The notes below the pieces were generated by a model that worked only from the letters and a program-made list of their open reading frames with translations, ran no database searches and was not told the origin of the DNA. 64,000 bases of DNA from Sulfitobacter sp. S190. Lineage in GTDB: Bacteria; Pseudomonadota; Alphaproteobacteria; Rhodobacterales; Rhodobacteraceae. The position numbers and the translations under genes were made by a program. The stretch is from positions 2,418,001-2,482,000 of the forward strand of contig NZ_CP081120.1 in NCBI RefSeq assembly GCF_025141935.1, in the 5' to 3' direction. This document shows, one piece after another, positions 35,221-41,929 of this stretch; position 1 is the stretch's first letter; each line of letters opens with the position of its first letter.

Positions 35221-35248
35221 CTAACGGGGATGTTATACACTGCGTCGT
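35221..35248 (+). promoter_or_regulatory. Possible promoter of the bufferin operon
   Basis: CTAACG (35221-35226) and CGTCGT (35243-35248) are 16 bases apart, like an ECF-sigma promoter; ECF control of bufferin operons is known in Caulobacter. GTTATACAC between them could instead be a sigma-70 -10 box. Only the position, after the thrS terminator and about 80 bases before bufA, is firm. Confidence 0.25.
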
Positions 35249-35325
35249 GAATGGCCTCCGCCTCTGCGGGCTGCTTTAACAGTGTCATTGAACTTTCATT
35301 GTGACTTCAAAACGGGAGAAACCTG

Positions 35326-35631
35326 ATGTCCACAACCATGAAAACGCTCGCTATTGCCGGTGTTGTCGCCGCATCCGTCACCGGTGTGACCACGACCTCC
35401 GCCGCTGCTGCCGCGAAAGAGAAATGCTACGGCGTGTCGCTGGCTGGCGAAAACGATTGCGCCGCGGGCCCCGGCACCACCTGCGCCGGTACATCCGTGA
35501 CCGACTATCAGGGCAACGCATGGACGCTTGTTGATGCTGGCACATGCGCCGAAATCGAACTGCCCGCAATGGCAGACGGGACGGAGCGGACAGGTTCGCT
35601 CGAAGCGCTCGACCGCGATTTGCCGGCCTGA
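35326..35631 (+). CDS. bufA: Bufferin precursor, DUF2282 family copper metallophore
   Basis: 101 residues. Sec signal peptide (about 1-29) ending in a run of Ala, then a mature part with four cysteines: Cys34 ([10 protein letters not shown]), Cys45 (ENDCAAG), Cys53 (TTCAG) and Cys74 (AGTCAEI). This spacing and the KCYGV-NDCAAG motif match bufferins, periplasmic RiPPs in which an MNIO enzyme turns cysteines into thiooxazoles that bind copper. GGGAG lies seven bases before the ATG. First gene of a four-gene operon with bufB, bufC and doxX. Confidence 0.9.
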
Positions 35632-35702
35632 GAAATATCGCGCGGGGTCCAAGGTCCAACCGGGGCCCCGCGCACTTTAACCTGAGACCGGAGGGTATTG
35701 AG

Positions 35703-36566
35703 ATGTTTGACCAATCCGCCCCCGCGACCCGCCTTCCCAATGGCGTCGGCGTCGGCTACAAACCACAACATTTCTCCGACCTGATGGCTGCCCCCGGCCC
35801 TGTCACGTGGATCGAGGTCCATGCGGAAAACTACATGGGTGACGGTGGCCGCCCCCACGCGCAGCTGCGCGCACTGTCCGAAAAATTTGCGGTGTCGGTG
35901 CACGGTGTCGGATTGTCGATCGGCGGCGAAGACCCTCTGGACCGCGAGCATCTGGCACGGTTGCGCAAATTGCTCGACTGGTCCAACCCCGCCAACTTTT
36001 CCGAACATCTCGCCTGGTCCACGCATGGCGCTGAGTTCCTGAACGACCTTCTACCTTTGCCCTATACCGACGCGACCCTCGCCCGTGTCGCGGACCATAT
36101 CGCGCAGGTGCAGGACGTTCTGGGGCGGCAAATGCTTCTTGAAAATCCGTCTAGCTACCTTGCTTTCGCAGAGAGCACTTTGTCTGAAACCGACTTTCTG
36201 ACCCTGCTTGTCCAGCAAACCGGCTGCGGTCTGTTGCTGGATGTCAACAATGTGTTTGTTTCGTCCACAAACCTCGATGTCAGCCCGCGCGCCTATATCG
36301 ATGCCTTTCCGCTCGAAGCGGTCGGCGAGATCCATGTCGGCGGGCACGATGAAGATACGGACGACAGCGGCGCGCCCCTGTTGATCGACAGCCACGGCGC
36401 ACCTGTAGTTGATCCTGTGTGGTCGCTGCTCGACTACACGCTCGCGCGGTCTGGTCCACGTCCCGTCCTTGTGGAATGGGATACCGACGTGCCCGACTGG
36501 CCCACGCTCCGGCGCGAAGCAGACCGCGCCGCGCAGGCGCTTACCGGTGTGACCGCGAGCCAATGA
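35703..36566 (+). CDS. bufB: MNIO (DUF692) enzyme BufB
   Basis: 287-residue TIM-barrel multinuclear non-heme iron oxidase. Likely metal-binding segments: [13 protein letters not shown] near residue 38, [46 protein letters not shown] and DSHG. It modifies cysteines of the precursor peptide in the cytoplasm. GGAGG precedes the ATG at 35703. Its stop overlaps the bufC start by ATGA, as expected for an enzyme-partner pair. Confidence 0.93.
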
Positions 36567-37312
36567 CGGCGTCACAGCGCCAGTTTCGTGCGGCTTTGCT
36601 AGATGCCGAAGCCGCGGTGCCGGACGGGTTGCTGGATTGTGCGGGCGCACCCGCAGGGCGCCGATACGGTGTCTACCGCAACAATGTCGTTGTGTCCCTC
36701 ATCGAGGCGATGAAGACGGCCTTTCCAACGGTTCGGACTTTGCTGGGGTCGCAAAACTTCGACGGTCTGGCACCGATCTTTGTCCGCCAGCACCCGCCCT
36801 CCTCTCCGCTAATGATGCACTACGGTGCGGAATTCCCCGGGTTTCTTCAAGGCGTGAGCCAGCTGTCGCATCTGGGATACCTGCCCGACGTCGCGCGTCT
36901 CGATCTGGCCATGCGGCAGTCCTATCACGCAGCCGATCCCACCCCTTTCGATGTCTCCGTCCTCGAACAACCGCCCGAGGAATTGTCGCGCGTGTATCTT
37001 GCGCTTGCGCCGCCGGTACGGATCATCCGGTCCCGCTGGCCCCTGTTTGACATCTGGCAAAAAACACAGGACCCGCAGGCCGCAGCGCCCCGCAATATCG
37101 CGCAGGACATCATGATCGCGCGGCCCGAATTTGATCCTGCCCCGTATCTGCTGCCGCCCGGCGCCGCCGTGTGGTTGAGCGCGCTTGTCGAGCACGATCT
37201 GGGCACTGCGCTCGAAATGGCAACAGCGGCGGATCCTGACTTTGACTTTGCCGCAGCCCTCACGCTGGCACTGCAAACCCAAGCATTGACCACCAAGACA
37301 AAGGACGCCTGA
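36563..37312 (+). CDS. bufC: DUF2063 partner protein BufC
   Basis: 249 residues. The N-terminal DUF2063 domain contains [29 protein letters not shown], formerly called a putative DNA-binding domain; in bufferin systems this protein binds the precursor and presents it to the MNIO enzyme. The C-terminal half is a mixed alpha/beta domain. The start at 36563 is set by the ATGA overlap. The following doxX gene starts directly after its stop codon. Confidence 0.9.
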
Positions 37313-37861
37313 ATGAACGCGCTTTTTTCGACCTACCGCTCCATCACCACACGGCTTGACCGCGCGGATTGGCTGTTGCCGACGCTCGCCCGGTTTCTCT
37401 TTGCCGCCATTTTGCTGATGTATTTCTGGGTCTCCGGTCTGACCAAGTTGGGCGATGGCTTCATGGGCATTTTCGCCCCCTCCACAGGGGCTTACGTGCA
37501 GATCTTCCCCCGAATGATGGAAGCTGTCGGCTATGATACAAGCCAGTTTTCGCTCTTTCACAAGCTGGTCGTTCTGGCCGGCACATGGGCGGAGTTCATC
37601 TTGCCCGCTTTGATCGTACTGGGCCTGCTGACACGGCTTTCCGCACTGGGGATGATCGGTTTTATCGTGGTGCAATCGCTGACCGACCTTTACGGCCACA
37701 ACGGTTGGGAAGACAGCACGGTTCTGGGCGCATGGTTCGACCGGTTCCCGGACGCAGCCATCCTTGATCAAAGAGCGCTATGGGTGTTTTTACTGATCGT
37801 TCTGGTCATCAAGGGCGCGGGTCCGATTTCATTTGACCGGGCACTCTCCCCCAAAAACTAG
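37313..37861 (+). CDS. DoxX family membrane protein of the bufferin operon
   Basis: 182 residues with four transmembrane helices; LARFLFAAILLMYFWVSGLTKLGDG and WAEFILPALIVLGLLTRLSALGM are the DoxX signatures. DoxX genes are frequent in bufferin operons, where they may serve respiration or redox balance; the role is not settled. It begins at the base after the bufC stop and overlaps the convergent ArsC-like gene by 4 bases. Confidence 0.9.
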   Translation: MNALFSTYRSITTRLDRADWLLPTLARFLFAAILLMYFWVSGLTKLGDGFMGIFAPSTGAYVQIFPRMMEAVGYDTSQFSLFHKLVVLAGTWAEFILPALIVLGLLTRLSALGMIGFIVVQSLTDLYGHNGWEDSTVLGAWFDRFPDAAILDQRALWVFLLIVLVIKGAGPISFDRALSPKN

Positions 37862-38181
37862 AGCGCCGCGCGCACCTCTTCTTCGGTTTGCGCCGTCCAC
37901 CCCAGAAACAACCGATCGCCCGCTTTGATCAGCGGGCGTTTCATCAGTGCGGGATGGGTTTTGAGCAGCTCAGCGGGGTCCCCCGCGCGCTCGATCTCGG
38001 ACAGGCCCCGCCATGTGGTCGAACGGGTGTTGACCAGCTTGTTGCCAAATTGTGCATGCGCTTGCGCCATCACATCCGCGGGCACACCGTCGATACGCAC
38101 GTCGCGCAGCTGCGCTTCCGGCAACGCTTTCATGGCCTTCCGGCAGGTGTCACAATTTTTGAGACCAAATACCTCAATCAT
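37858..38181 (-). CDS. ArsC/Spx family protein 1
   Basis: 107-residue thioredoxin-fold protein. Redox motif CDTC lies at residues 10-13 (GLKNCDTCRKAM), followed by NTRSTTWRGL and HPALMKRPLI, all typical of the ArsC/Spx/YffB group. Whether it reduces arsenate or acts as a glutathione-linked reductase cannot be told. A paralogue lies 0.8 kb away on the same strand. Confidence 0.88.
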   Translation of the reverse strand: MIEVFGLKNCDTCRKAMKALPEAQLRDVRIDGVPADVMAQAHAQFGNKLVNTRSTTWRGLSEIERAGDPAELLKTHPALMKRPLIKAGDRLFLGWTAQTEEEVRAAL

Positions 38182-38956: not shown

Positions 38957-39286
38957 CTACTGCGCCAGCCAGACGGCCTGTGCGGCCGCGTCCCAGCCGA
39001 GGGTGTAACGGGTGCCATCGGTGATGACGGGGCGGGCCATGAGGGCGGGTTGGTCCATCAGCTGCGCCTCGGCCTCGCTCTCGCGCATCCATGCGTTGAG
39101 GTTGCGGTAGGTCTGGGACTTGCGGTCGACGAGCGTGTCGCCGAATTCGGCGAGCAGCGGGGCCCATTCGGCCTCGGTCAGCCGGTCGGCACGGACATCC
39201 CGAAAGGTGACGGCATGACCCGCGTCCGTAAGGGCGCGTTGGGCTTTCTTGCAATCGGAACAGGTGGGCAGGCCATAGAGGATCAT
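38957..39286 (-). CDS. ArsC/Spx family protein 2
   Basis: 109-residue thioredoxin-fold protein. The redox site is CSDC in MILYGLPTCSDCKKAQ, followed by GDTLVDRKSQTYRNL and QPALMARPVI, which align with paralogue 1. Start 39286 is chosen because the family begins at this MILYGLP; the frame could be extended to 39340. Function is uncertain, as for paralogue 1. Confidence 0.86.
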   Translation of the reverse strand: MILYGLPTCSDCKKAQRALTDAGHAVTFRDVRADRLTEAEWAPLLAEFGDTLVDRKSQTYRNLNAWMRESEAEAQLMDQPALMARPVITDGTRYTLGWDAAAQAVWLAQ

Positions 39287-39360
39287 TTGGGGGGCTTTCG
39301 GATTGGGGAGACCGTCGGGCGTTTCACGTTTCATTAACACTGAATCGGCAGGGTTTGACC

Positions 39361-39840
39361 ATGCCTCACTATCTTCGCCCGCGCAGATCGGGGGCTTGCC
39401 TGTTTCTGACCATCACCCTCGCGCGGCGCGGCGCGCGGGATCTGGTCGAACATATCGACATCTTGCGCGATGCGGTGCGCAGGACGCGCGCGGACCGGCC
39501 CTTTGCCATCGACGCTTGGGTCGTGTTGCCCGATCACATGCACTGCGTCTGGACGCTACCGGAGAATGACTGCGATTTTTCGACCCGTGTGGGGCTGATC
39601 AAGGCGCGGTTCTCTCGCCGCTTGCCGATGGGACAGCGCCGCGCGAGCCATGTTTTCAGACGTGAACGGGGCATCTGGCAACGTCGGTTCTGGGAACACC
39701 ACATTCGGGACGAAACGGATTACCGCAATCATGTCGCGTATTGTTGGCACAATCCGGTGAAGCACGGTTACGTGGCGCGCCCGGAGGATTGGCCGCATTC
39801 GTCATGGCACCGGGATCACGCAAGCGCCGCACGCACGTAG
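39361..39840 (+). mobile_element. REP-associated tyrosine transposase (RAYT, Y1_Tnp family)
   Basis: 159-residue HUH single-strand transposase. The HUH motif is H59-M60-H61 in VVLPDHMHCVWTLP; the catalytic Tyr lies in the RDETDYRNHVAYCWHNPVKHGYV segment (Tyr121 or Tyr127). IWQRRFWEHHIRDE is the family signature. It is a domesticated relative of the IS200/IS605 enzyme that moves or maintains REP elements. Three REP copies lie at its 3' end, and the first contains its stop codon. Confidence 0.9.
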
Positions 39841-40152: not shown

Positions 40153-40815
40153 TCAATCACGGATGGGAATTCTATTCCAAGGGCTTCGATTTGCAGTTGC
40201 AACTCGGCGTAAATAGTTTCGAAGGAAGTTATCTGTCTCAATCGTCAGTCTATCAATAAGTTCCACTTTGTTTCGGAGTTCATTGCGCCTGACATATGGA
40301 GCATCAGGTCCCCTATGAGCAATTTCACCTCTTAGAGAAACAAAATTGTTCAAGTCCTCACGAGAATACGACCAAGCGTTTTCAAGATCGTTTGCATCGA
40401 CTCCCAACCAATCATGAAACAGAGACGATATTTGTCCAAATTTTGGAGTATTGAGTATGCTACAGTTTTGACGGACCGCGCTAAGAAAGACATTTTTCCA
40501 ACCTTCACCACATAGCAAGAGCACGCCGAAATCGTGCTTGTCAGATTTTGCAGTCTTCACCAATTGGCCTTTGACTCGATTCGGAAGCGCATCTGGCACA
40601 TCAGAACCCGCAATAAGAAATTCGGCGCACTCAATCGTTACGTCTTCGACATAGAGCTCCCACGCACTGCTTAAACTCAGTACCCCGCTTCGAGTTATGT
40701 GCCCGAGATGCCGCCGACCCCTTCCAGGAGGATTAAGCTCTTCGTGCGTTTTGAGTAGCTTCTGTACATCTGGCATGAGCTTCCGTTTGAAATTCTGCCT
40801 CGCATTCGATGGCAT
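40153..40815 (-). CDS. HEPN-family (RiboL-PSP-like) protein
   Basis: 220 residues, all helical. The C-terminal half carries R162-G-E-I-A-H167 (RxxxxH) in SLRGEIAHRGP, the catalytic motif of HEPN RNases; the N-terminal part has SSAWELYVEDVTIECAEFL, as in RiboL-PSP-type HEPN proteins. No nucleotidyltransferase-type antitoxin is adjacent. The gene starts one base after the thyX stop (TAA-G-ATG); a start at 40776 with GGAAG upstream is also good. It is A+T richer than its neighbours and abuts REP repeats, so recent gain is likely. Confidence 0.78.
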   Translation of the reverse strand: MPSNARQNFKRKLMPDVQKLLKTHEELNPPGRGRRHLGHITRSGVLSLSSAWELYVEDVTIECAEFLIAGSDVPDALPNRVKGQLVKTAKSDKHDFGVLLLCGEGWKNVFLSAVRQNCSILNTPKFGQISSLFHDWLGVDANDLENAWSYSREDLNNFVSLRGEIAHRGPDAPYVRRNELRNKVELIDRLTIETDNFLRNYLRRVATANRSPWNRIPIRD

Positions 40816-40816
40816 C

Positions 40817-41722
40817 TTACCTAATCACCCCCTCAAACTCCCGCCATTCCCCCTTCGACATGCCGCTGTTCTCCTGCGTGACCTCCTCCCCCGCCAACAT
40901 CCGGCGCAGGCAGTCGAGTGCCTTGCCGGAGAGGGTGGCGCCGCCCAGCCGGTAGTCCTCGAAGGCGCCGTAGGCGGCGGGCACCCAGTCGGCGACGACT
41001 TTGCAGATCGCATCGGCGTAGACGCGGATTTCGTATTGGGCGTGGCTGTCGGCGCGCAGGCGCAGGAAGTGGAAGAGGTTGTGCAGATCCACCTTCCAGT
41101 ACCACTGGGTATAGATGTTGGCGGGCAGGTTCATGCGGGCCAGTTCGCGGGCGAGGCCGTCCTGCCCGTCCTGGCTGATCATCTGCTCGTAGTTGTCATA
41201 GGCGCGGTTGCTGTCGGATTTGAGGATTTCGAGCACGCGGGCGGCCTCGTCGCCCTCCAGCACCCCGCCGCGCCCCTGATTGTTGACGACGGATTGCGCG
41301 TTGATGTGATCGGCGGCGGGAATATAGAATTCACGGTCGAGAATCGAATAGCGGGCGGAGTATTCGTTTACGTTGGCCGTGCGGTGGCGAATCCACTGGC
41401 GGGCCACGAAGACGGGCAGTTTGACGTGCAGCTTGATCTCGCACATCTCGAAGGGGGTCGAGTGCCAGTGCCGCATCAGGTAGCGGATGAGCCCTTCGTC
41501 GTTCTGCACCGACTTGGTCCCCTTGCCGTAGCTGACCCGCGCGGCCTGACAGATCGCCGCGTCGTCGCCCATGTAGTCGATGACCCGGACAAACCCGTGG
41601 TCGAGCACTTCGTGCGCGCGGTAGAGATGCGCCTCCATCCCCGGTGAGACGGCGCGCAAGGTGGGTTGTGCATTGGCGCGCAGGGCGTCGATTTCGGCTT
41701 GTTGCTCGGGCGAAAGCGGCAT
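40817..41722 (-). CDS. thyX: Flavin-dependent thymidylate synthase
   Basis: 301-residue enzyme making dTMP from dUMP with methylene-tetrahydrofolate and FAD. The ThyX motif is visible in [19 protein letters not shown]. Other family segments: [21 protein letters not shown] [21 protein letters not shown] and [19 protein letters not shown]. Starts [16 protein letters not shown]; longer frames run through the promoter region of the divergent lipoprotein gene. Confidence 0.95.
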
Positions 41723-41929
41723 GTTCGGTTCCTTGGCGGCTGGGGAAGGATGGATTCGTCTGTTACTATATCTGGCGGATGGTCGCTTCCCAACAGCGAT
41801 ATGCGGTATTGTTTTTTCGCCATGCTTATATGGTTTCTTTGCCGCAACCGGTGGACGGCGTTGACAATGCGCCGAAGTTGCGGCGACTGTTGCCGACAAA
41901 AGAACACACCGTTTTTTGAGGGCAGACCT

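Follow-up and report, generated by a model that had tools for sequence, protein, structure and literature searches.

A Buf1-type bufferin operon of Sulfitobacter sp. S190, its conserved upstream operator and a like palindrome at msrA

A 64,000-nucleotide stretch of the Sulfitobacter sp. S190 chromosome (contig NZ_CP081120.1, positions 2,418,001 to 2,482,000; hereafter the window, whose first letter is position 1) carries at 35326-37861 a complete four-gene Buf1 set, bufA-bufB-bufC-doxX, arranged as one tight rightward operon. The operon is one more example of a known family. What is new is a conserved operator ahead of bufA, found in part also ahead of msrA, the gene for an exported-looking methionine sulfoxide reductase. 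We consider it very probable that this is a copper-buffering operon of the Buf1 type, controlled through the operator and not through sigmaF/NrsF, by a putative regulator that is probably common to msrA.

The bufferin core is described as these same four genes, and thousands of bufferin precursors have already been collected (excerpts of PMC12452194). According to the same excerpts, Buf1 precursors have four conserved cysteines: modification takes place at the central ones, and a disulphide joins the outer two; Caulobacter Buf1 protects against copper, and its chelation of copper was shown. In related products, the captophorins, the modification has been assigned as 5-thiooxazoles (excerpts of PMC13097082, 2026). 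Control of bufferin synthesis is described in excerpts of PMC3511200 for Caulobacter, where sigmaF controls two bufferin operons and yedY from GTAACC-N16-CGAA promoters and is restrained by the DUF1109 protein CC3252.

A conserved operator upstream of bufA

The putative operator lies just upstream of the expected -35 region (contig positions 2453222-2453252) and departs from the palindromic pattern by one mismatch, GTTA replacing the first GTGA. In the conserved motif of the relatives, an additional TCAC is found 10 bp upstream of the palindrome pair. The initial annotation, made from the letters of the window, had placed the start of the bufferin feature at 35221; no gene begins there, and the position coincides with the operator at 35222-35252. 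Reading position 35222 as an ECF-type (extracytoplasmic function) promoter, TAAC-N17-CGT, was also considered and was dropped, as this element is not conserved as such in relatives, whereas the palindromes are.

Conservation was examined in 80 related loci retrieved with BufB as the query, in which bufA, bufC and doxX were sought by tblastn. A de novo motif search upstream of 79 bufA genes gave a score above 8 for 73 of them, with a motif log-likelihood of 974 compared with 101-115 in three shuffled sets that were run with fewer restarts; two loci (L029 and L068) have no parsable bufA upstream region and stand outside the motif set. The strict double pattern occurs 42 times in 41 of 149 genomes of the family, against a single match of the reversed-pattern control, and 40 of the 42 matches sit 155-220 bp before a DUF2282 match on the same strand (L178 was parsed neither for these distances nor for the genus msrA promoters below). 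When one mismatch is allowed, 23 of 24 genus genomes have the operator 188-203 bp before the BufA core. Across 385 genomes of the class, the strict pattern gave three matches, all within this family. Outside it, an alphaproteobacterium of another family (L149:6001-6031) has a one-mismatch operator 44 bp before the bufA-like open reading frame (ORF) of a bufferin operon; this match may be due to chance, or the operator may be older than the family.

Loci at which the operator stands away from thrS, the gene that usually precedes bufA, were informative about its affiliation. A thrS terminator or other 3' element was rejected as an explanation, given that thrS is missing from the stretch examined at seven operator loci and that all 41 genomes with a strict match have DUF2282; because those seven loci stand away from thrS, the operator goes with the operon. 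With one mismatch allowed, the 24 genus genomes have five matches away from bufA, one of them the msrA site, compared with two for the control, so that further targets of the operator are neither shown nor excluded by these counts. Among titles and the opening lines of abstracts on roseobacter bufferins, bufferin regulation and Rhodobacter msrA, we found no published account of this operator, and none of the listed titles of papers mentioning DUF2282 deals with regulation in Roseobacter.

Operator and sigmaF/NrsF loci

A profile search detected no NrsF (DUF1109) match in the S190 genome, and sigmaF/NrsF control was rejected for this organism on that ground. In the family, NrsF is found in 22 of the 149 genomes at E<=0.001 (21 over the cut-off) and a DUF2282 match in 106. 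The bufA upstream region was scored in 105 of the latter, G098 being left out with its bufA at a contig edge. Operator scores above 10 occur in 73 of 93 genomes without an adjacent NrsF gene and in 0 of 12 with one (Fisher 1.2e-7), and they are likewise absent from all four of the 93 whose NrsF gene lies at another locus; among 2100 shuffled scores the maximum was 3.6. In G007, which has two bufA copies, neither scored copy has the operator. The opposite distribution is seen for a sigmaF-like promoter (two mismatches or fewer), which is present in 9 of the 12 genomes with adjacent NrsF versus 8 of the 93 without (about 10% in shuffled sequences). One locus lineage thus has the operator and another has sigmaF.

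A second site at msrA

Elsewhere in the S190 genome the strict double pattern has one match, whose end is 48 bp upstream of the msrA ATG. The product is a methionine sulfoxide reductase (PMSR, 179 bits) that looks exported, its signal peptide being judged by eye. At nearly the same place, a single palindrome, TCAC-N6-GTGA, is exact in 27 of 29 parsed genus msrA promoters. An msrA ortholog at E<=1e-50 is present in 96 of the 149 family genomes, and 95 upstream regions were parsed (all except that of G127); G098 was again left out of the contrast that follows, its bufA lying at a contig edge. Among genomes with the bufA operator, 48 of 59 have the exact palindrome at msrA, as against 13 of 35 among the rest (Fisher 3.6e-5, kinship ignored); with at most one mismatch, the counts are 56 of 59 and 22 of 35. 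Shuffled msrA regions gave 0.1% exact matches and 4% with one mismatch. As at bufA, a TNA[AC] half-site precedes many of the msrA sites by 10 bp. The palindrome-bearing intergenic region is shared by msrA and a divergent sulfotransferase-like gene (L150:1952-2099), and 53 of the 59 msrA loci compared are represented in the cluster to which this neighbour belongs. Judging from these sites, we consider it most likely that, in most of the family, one putative regulator switches on both the bufferin operon and the exported MsrA.

The bufferin operon and its products

The initial annotation had described four adjacent rightward genes encoding a DUF2282 peptide, a DUF692 enzyme, a DUF2063 partner and a DoxX protein. 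All four are present and open, with the families as described, and in profile searches all four proteins, including the three for which a profile check had been proposed (DUF2282, DUF692 and DUF2063), score above the curated Pfam cut-offs of their families (Table 1). The ORF of bufB opens upstream at 35544, yet the ATG at 35703 is the one preceded by GGAGG. The predicted coupling of bufB and bufC by an ATGA overlap is seen at 36563-36566, and the ATG of doxX comes directly after the bufC stop codon. The assignment to a bufferin layout also stood, as the genes form the four-gene core of excerpts of PMC12452194 and BufB passes the NCBIfam cut-off for a bufferin maturase.

Table 1. Positions of the bufferin genes and of the putative control elements in the window
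Feature	Position	Strand	Description
Conserved bufA operator (putative)	35222..35252	+	Two NNAC-N6-GTGA palindromes, centres 15 bp apart; TAACGGGGATGTTATACACTGCGTCGTGAAT
Weak candidate -10 hexamer TTTAAC	35275..35280	+	Predicted; spacing about that of a TANNNT-like element in relatives; poor match in the window
bufA	35326..35631	+	101 amino acids; Buf1 precursor; PF10048 82.9 bits
bufB	35703..36566	+	287 amino acids; MNIO (DUF692) bufferin maturase; PF05114 347 bits
bufC	36563..37312	+	249 amino acids; DUF2063 partner (PME type 1); PF09836 90.4 bits
doxX	37313..37861	+	182 amino acids; DoxX-family membrane protein; PF07681 29.8 vs cut-off 23.6

The PF10048 match covers residues 31-79 of BufA; no match was obtained among NCBIfam models. 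Cysteines occur at positions 34, 45, 53 and 74, as had been annotated, and nowhere else in the protein, and their C-x10-C-x7-C-x20-C spacing is kept in all 79 BufAs compared (78 relatives and that of the window). A signal peptide was judged by eye only, from a charged start, a hydrophobic run and an Ala-rich end before KEKCYG. The BufA sequence has no EGKCG repeats. After the last cysteine, and outside the DUF2282 match, follows a conserved C-terminal tail (35593-35628) whose motif is found in 72 of the 79 BufAs. Similar tails occur in one Sinorhizobium and one Chelatococcus BufA, and none was seen in the Escherichia coli plasmid or Sphingomonas examples compared. Some close relatives of BufA are already named 'BufA1 family periplasmic bufferin-type metallophore' by NCBI, so the peptide is of a known kind. 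Profile searches of the genome gave one DUF2282 match and one MNIO match.

BufB scores 371 against the NCBIfam model MNIO_BufB (cut-off 310) and falls below the NCBIfam cut-offs of HvfB (245 vs 360), MbnB (51.6 vs 325), ApyH and ChrH. It resembles the solved DUF692 protein PDB 3bww and, more distantly, MbnB structures; the His, Glu and Asp motifs that align in this comparison we take to be the iron ligands. BufC is below the cut-off of NCBIfam HvfC (38 vs 142) and had no sequence match among solved structures, and DoxX is below that of HvfX (29 vs 80).

Gene neighbourhood and related loci

Among the 80 relatives, bufA was found in 79, bufC in all 80 and doxX in 78, and the co-occurrence of the four-gene set is far above chance. 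The exact order thrS-bufA-bufB-bufC-doxX-(arsC-like, reverse)-csp is kept in 61 of the 80, so the neighbourhood is a fixed one on the chromosome. The proteins closest to the window BufA and BufB belong to Sulfitobacter and other roseobacters.

Downstream of the operon in the window are two ArsC/Spx-family genes on the minus strand, one at 37858-38181 that directly faces doxX and one at 38957-39340; an arsC-like match is present in 71 of the 80 relatives. They are followed on the plus strand by a small IS200-type transposase-like protein at 39355-39840 (21.8, just under the Pfam cut-off of 23) and on the minus strand by a RiboL-PSP-HEPN domain protein at 40153-40815 (55.5 bits), which adjoins the ORF 40817-41899 with its Thy1-type thymidylate synthase.

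In some relatives two copies of bufA lie near each other on the same strand (L080; G007:C18:55492-55990; G100:C45:5470-6052). Bufferin genes were also seen on plasmids, among them Buf1 genes on enterobacterial ones. An E. coli plasmid (L183, NZ_CP024225.1) carries a complete bufferin operon next to a TetR-type regulator, and on a Salmonella plasmid (L187, CP123685.1) a DUF2282 gene adjoins IS26, the 3 kb examined having no further annotated bufferin gene. A Paracoccus plasmid (L190, NZ_CP040764.1 215000-229000) has a row of bufABC, a longer DoxX-family gene, a thioredoxin-family gene, a sigma factor gene and a DUF1109 (NrsF-type) gene. A histidine kinase gene beside the Paracoccus operon was dropped as a candidate, given that the operon also has the sigma factor and DUF1109 genes and that the kinase gene lies near insertion-sequence genes. 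Phage records gave no bufferin maturase match at E<=1e-5.

Proposed mechanism and alternatives

The initial annotation had stated that the cysteines of the precursor become copper-binding thiooxazoles. This is too broad, since in excerpts of PMC12452194 modification is confined to the central cysteines, the first and last being joined by a disulphide; restricted to the central pair, the idea stands as a prediction. Because the thiooxazoles, the disulphide and the copper protection come from published relatives, we infer this chemistry for the window BufA by analogy, and we regard thiooxazoles and copper binding as a well-founded expectation. BufA would be made with a Sec signal, and the BufB-BufC complex would oxidize Cys45 and Cys53 to 5-thiooxazoles before export. 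In the periplasm, Cys34 and Cys74 would form the disulphide and the thiooxazoles would hold copper, so that an excess of the metal is buffered. DoxX would reside in the inner membrane, probably in a redox-related role. A putative DNA-binding regulator, most likely an activator, would bind the two adjacent palindromes upstream of a weak promoter. The same protein would probably drive the exported MsrA as well, such that copper buffering and the repair of oxidized methionines outside the cytoplasm are induced together.

A number of observations weigh against this picture. No transcription factor gene is conserved beside either bufA or msrA. At msrA usually only one of the palindromes is conserved, and when the 29 parsed genus msrA promoters are scored with the full double-site matrix, only that of S190 scores high. 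An exact msrA site is also present where neither bufA nor NrsF exists (7 of 13 genomes) and where NrsF is adjacent to bufA (1 of 5). The two genes flanking the msrA site are divergent, so the site could act on the sulfotransferase-like gene instead. At bufA, 20 of the 93 loci that lack an adjacent NrsF gene do not score above 10, the relatives used to build the operator matrix overlap with the tested genera, and the P values overstate independence because the family genomes are related. The mutual exclusion of operator and NrsF is itself confounded with locus and may reflect two locus lineages, because linkage to thrS is the rule at operator loci and is absent from NrsF loci: among 104 loci, thrS is in the stretch in 65 of 72 operator loci, 0 of 12 NrsF-linked loci and 10 of 20 loci without a good operator.

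The same bufferin operon could also be served by a regulator separate from that of msrA, the two palindromes being alike by convergence or through separate members of one protein family. We regard this as a serious alternative, if a somewhat improbable one. The msrA promoters have a signature of their own, GGTAAA-N6-TCAC-N5-CGTGA (28 matches, spread over 25 of 40 genus genomes; 24 lie at msrA; control 1); most of these promoters are scored poorly by the bufA matrix, and msrA sites persist in genomes without bufA. Yet the half-sites and the N6 spacing are the same at bufA and msrA, a half-site lies 10 bp upstream in both, the msrA site of S190 fits the full double pattern, and the msrA site is associated with the bufA operator (Fisher 3.6e-5, kinship ignored), all of which argues for one protein.

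Other alternatives concern the product. That the peptide serves another metal or a redox stress and not copper, with msrA and doxX belonging to an oxidant response (for example, to chromate or hypochlorite), seems unlikely to us. It would fit the like palindrome at the exported MsrA, the discovery of Caulobacter sigmaF, which controls bufferin operons and YedY, via chromium and cadmium (excerpts of PMC3511200), and the proposal of other metals and stresses in the bufferin survey itself; however, copper chelation is the shown function of Caulobacter Buf1 in excerpts of that survey (PMC12452194). A decayed or unexpressed operon without a product is highly improbable, as all four genes are open and both the cysteine pattern and the gene order are strongly conserved. 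In its favour, analysis of marine-broth cultures of Sulfitobacter strains detected no ribosomally synthesized and post-translationally modified peptide, though DUF692 genes were transcribed in biofilms; that study, in the excerpts of PMC11278168, covers molecules >10 kDa after overnight culture and is therefore no clear test of this peptide.

Returning to an operator-bound regulator shared by bufA and msrA, we tentatively hypothesize, giving it somewhat less than an even chance, that in roseobacters and other Rhodobacteraceae the control of bufferin synthesis has shifted from sigmaF/NrsF to a hitherto undescribed regulator that would recognize a TNAC-N6-GTGA tandem-palindrome operator and whose regulon would be essentially the bufferin operon and the exported MsrA. 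For a sizeable group of marine bacteria, the operator offers a concrete DNA bait with which to seek a bufferin regulator, and the nature of the signal is suggested by the similar palindrome at msrA. If the hypothesis is correct, bufferins would be part of a response to copper-driven oxidation of periplasmic thiols and methionines, beyond copper resistance alone.

Comparison with known systems

The gig operons of Cupriavidus and Legionella are named as bufferin clusters in excerpts of PMC12452194 and belong to other hosts. Methanobactin biosynthesis (MbnABC) uses an enzyme of the same MNIO superfamily, against whose MbnB model BufB scores only 51.6 (cut-off 325); it differs in having a precursor without a Sec signal and in serving copper scavenging (excerpts of PMC12452194). 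The captophorins and the HvfABC oxazolin and fontiphorin clusters share with the window operon an MNIO enzyme, a DUF2063 partner and a Cys-rich precursor, and their products have 5-thiooxazoles and a link to copper (excerpts of PMC13097082). Their precursors differ, being built of EGKCG repeats, and the BufB, BufC and DoxX of the window are below the HvfB, HvfC and HvfX cut-offs.

The nearest parallel for the regulation is the Caulobacter sigmaF regulon. It includes the operons CC3254-CC3257 and CC2907-CC2905, which have the same DUF2282-DUF692-DUF2063 order, followed in the first by DoxX, and it also includes YedY (CC2748) (excerpts of PMC3511200). Caulobacter differs in its use of sigmaF, GTAACC-N16-CGAA promoters and DUF1109/NrsF (same excerpts), whereas the S190 genome has no NrsF and has the tandem-palindrome operator. 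Should our hypothesis hold, the Caulobacter regulon, with its bufferins and YedY, would have arrived at the same pairing independently. We take YedY to be the periplasmic methionine sulfoxide reductase MsrP, in which case the exported MsrA mirrors YedY here; MsrA and YedY are unrelated proteins. Bufferins and methionine-sulfoxide repair would in that case be joined by two different regulatory systems, which points to copper-driven oxidation of periplasmic thiols and methionines as the common problem. If two unrelated systems do make this pairing, the physiological role of bufferins becomes directly testable.

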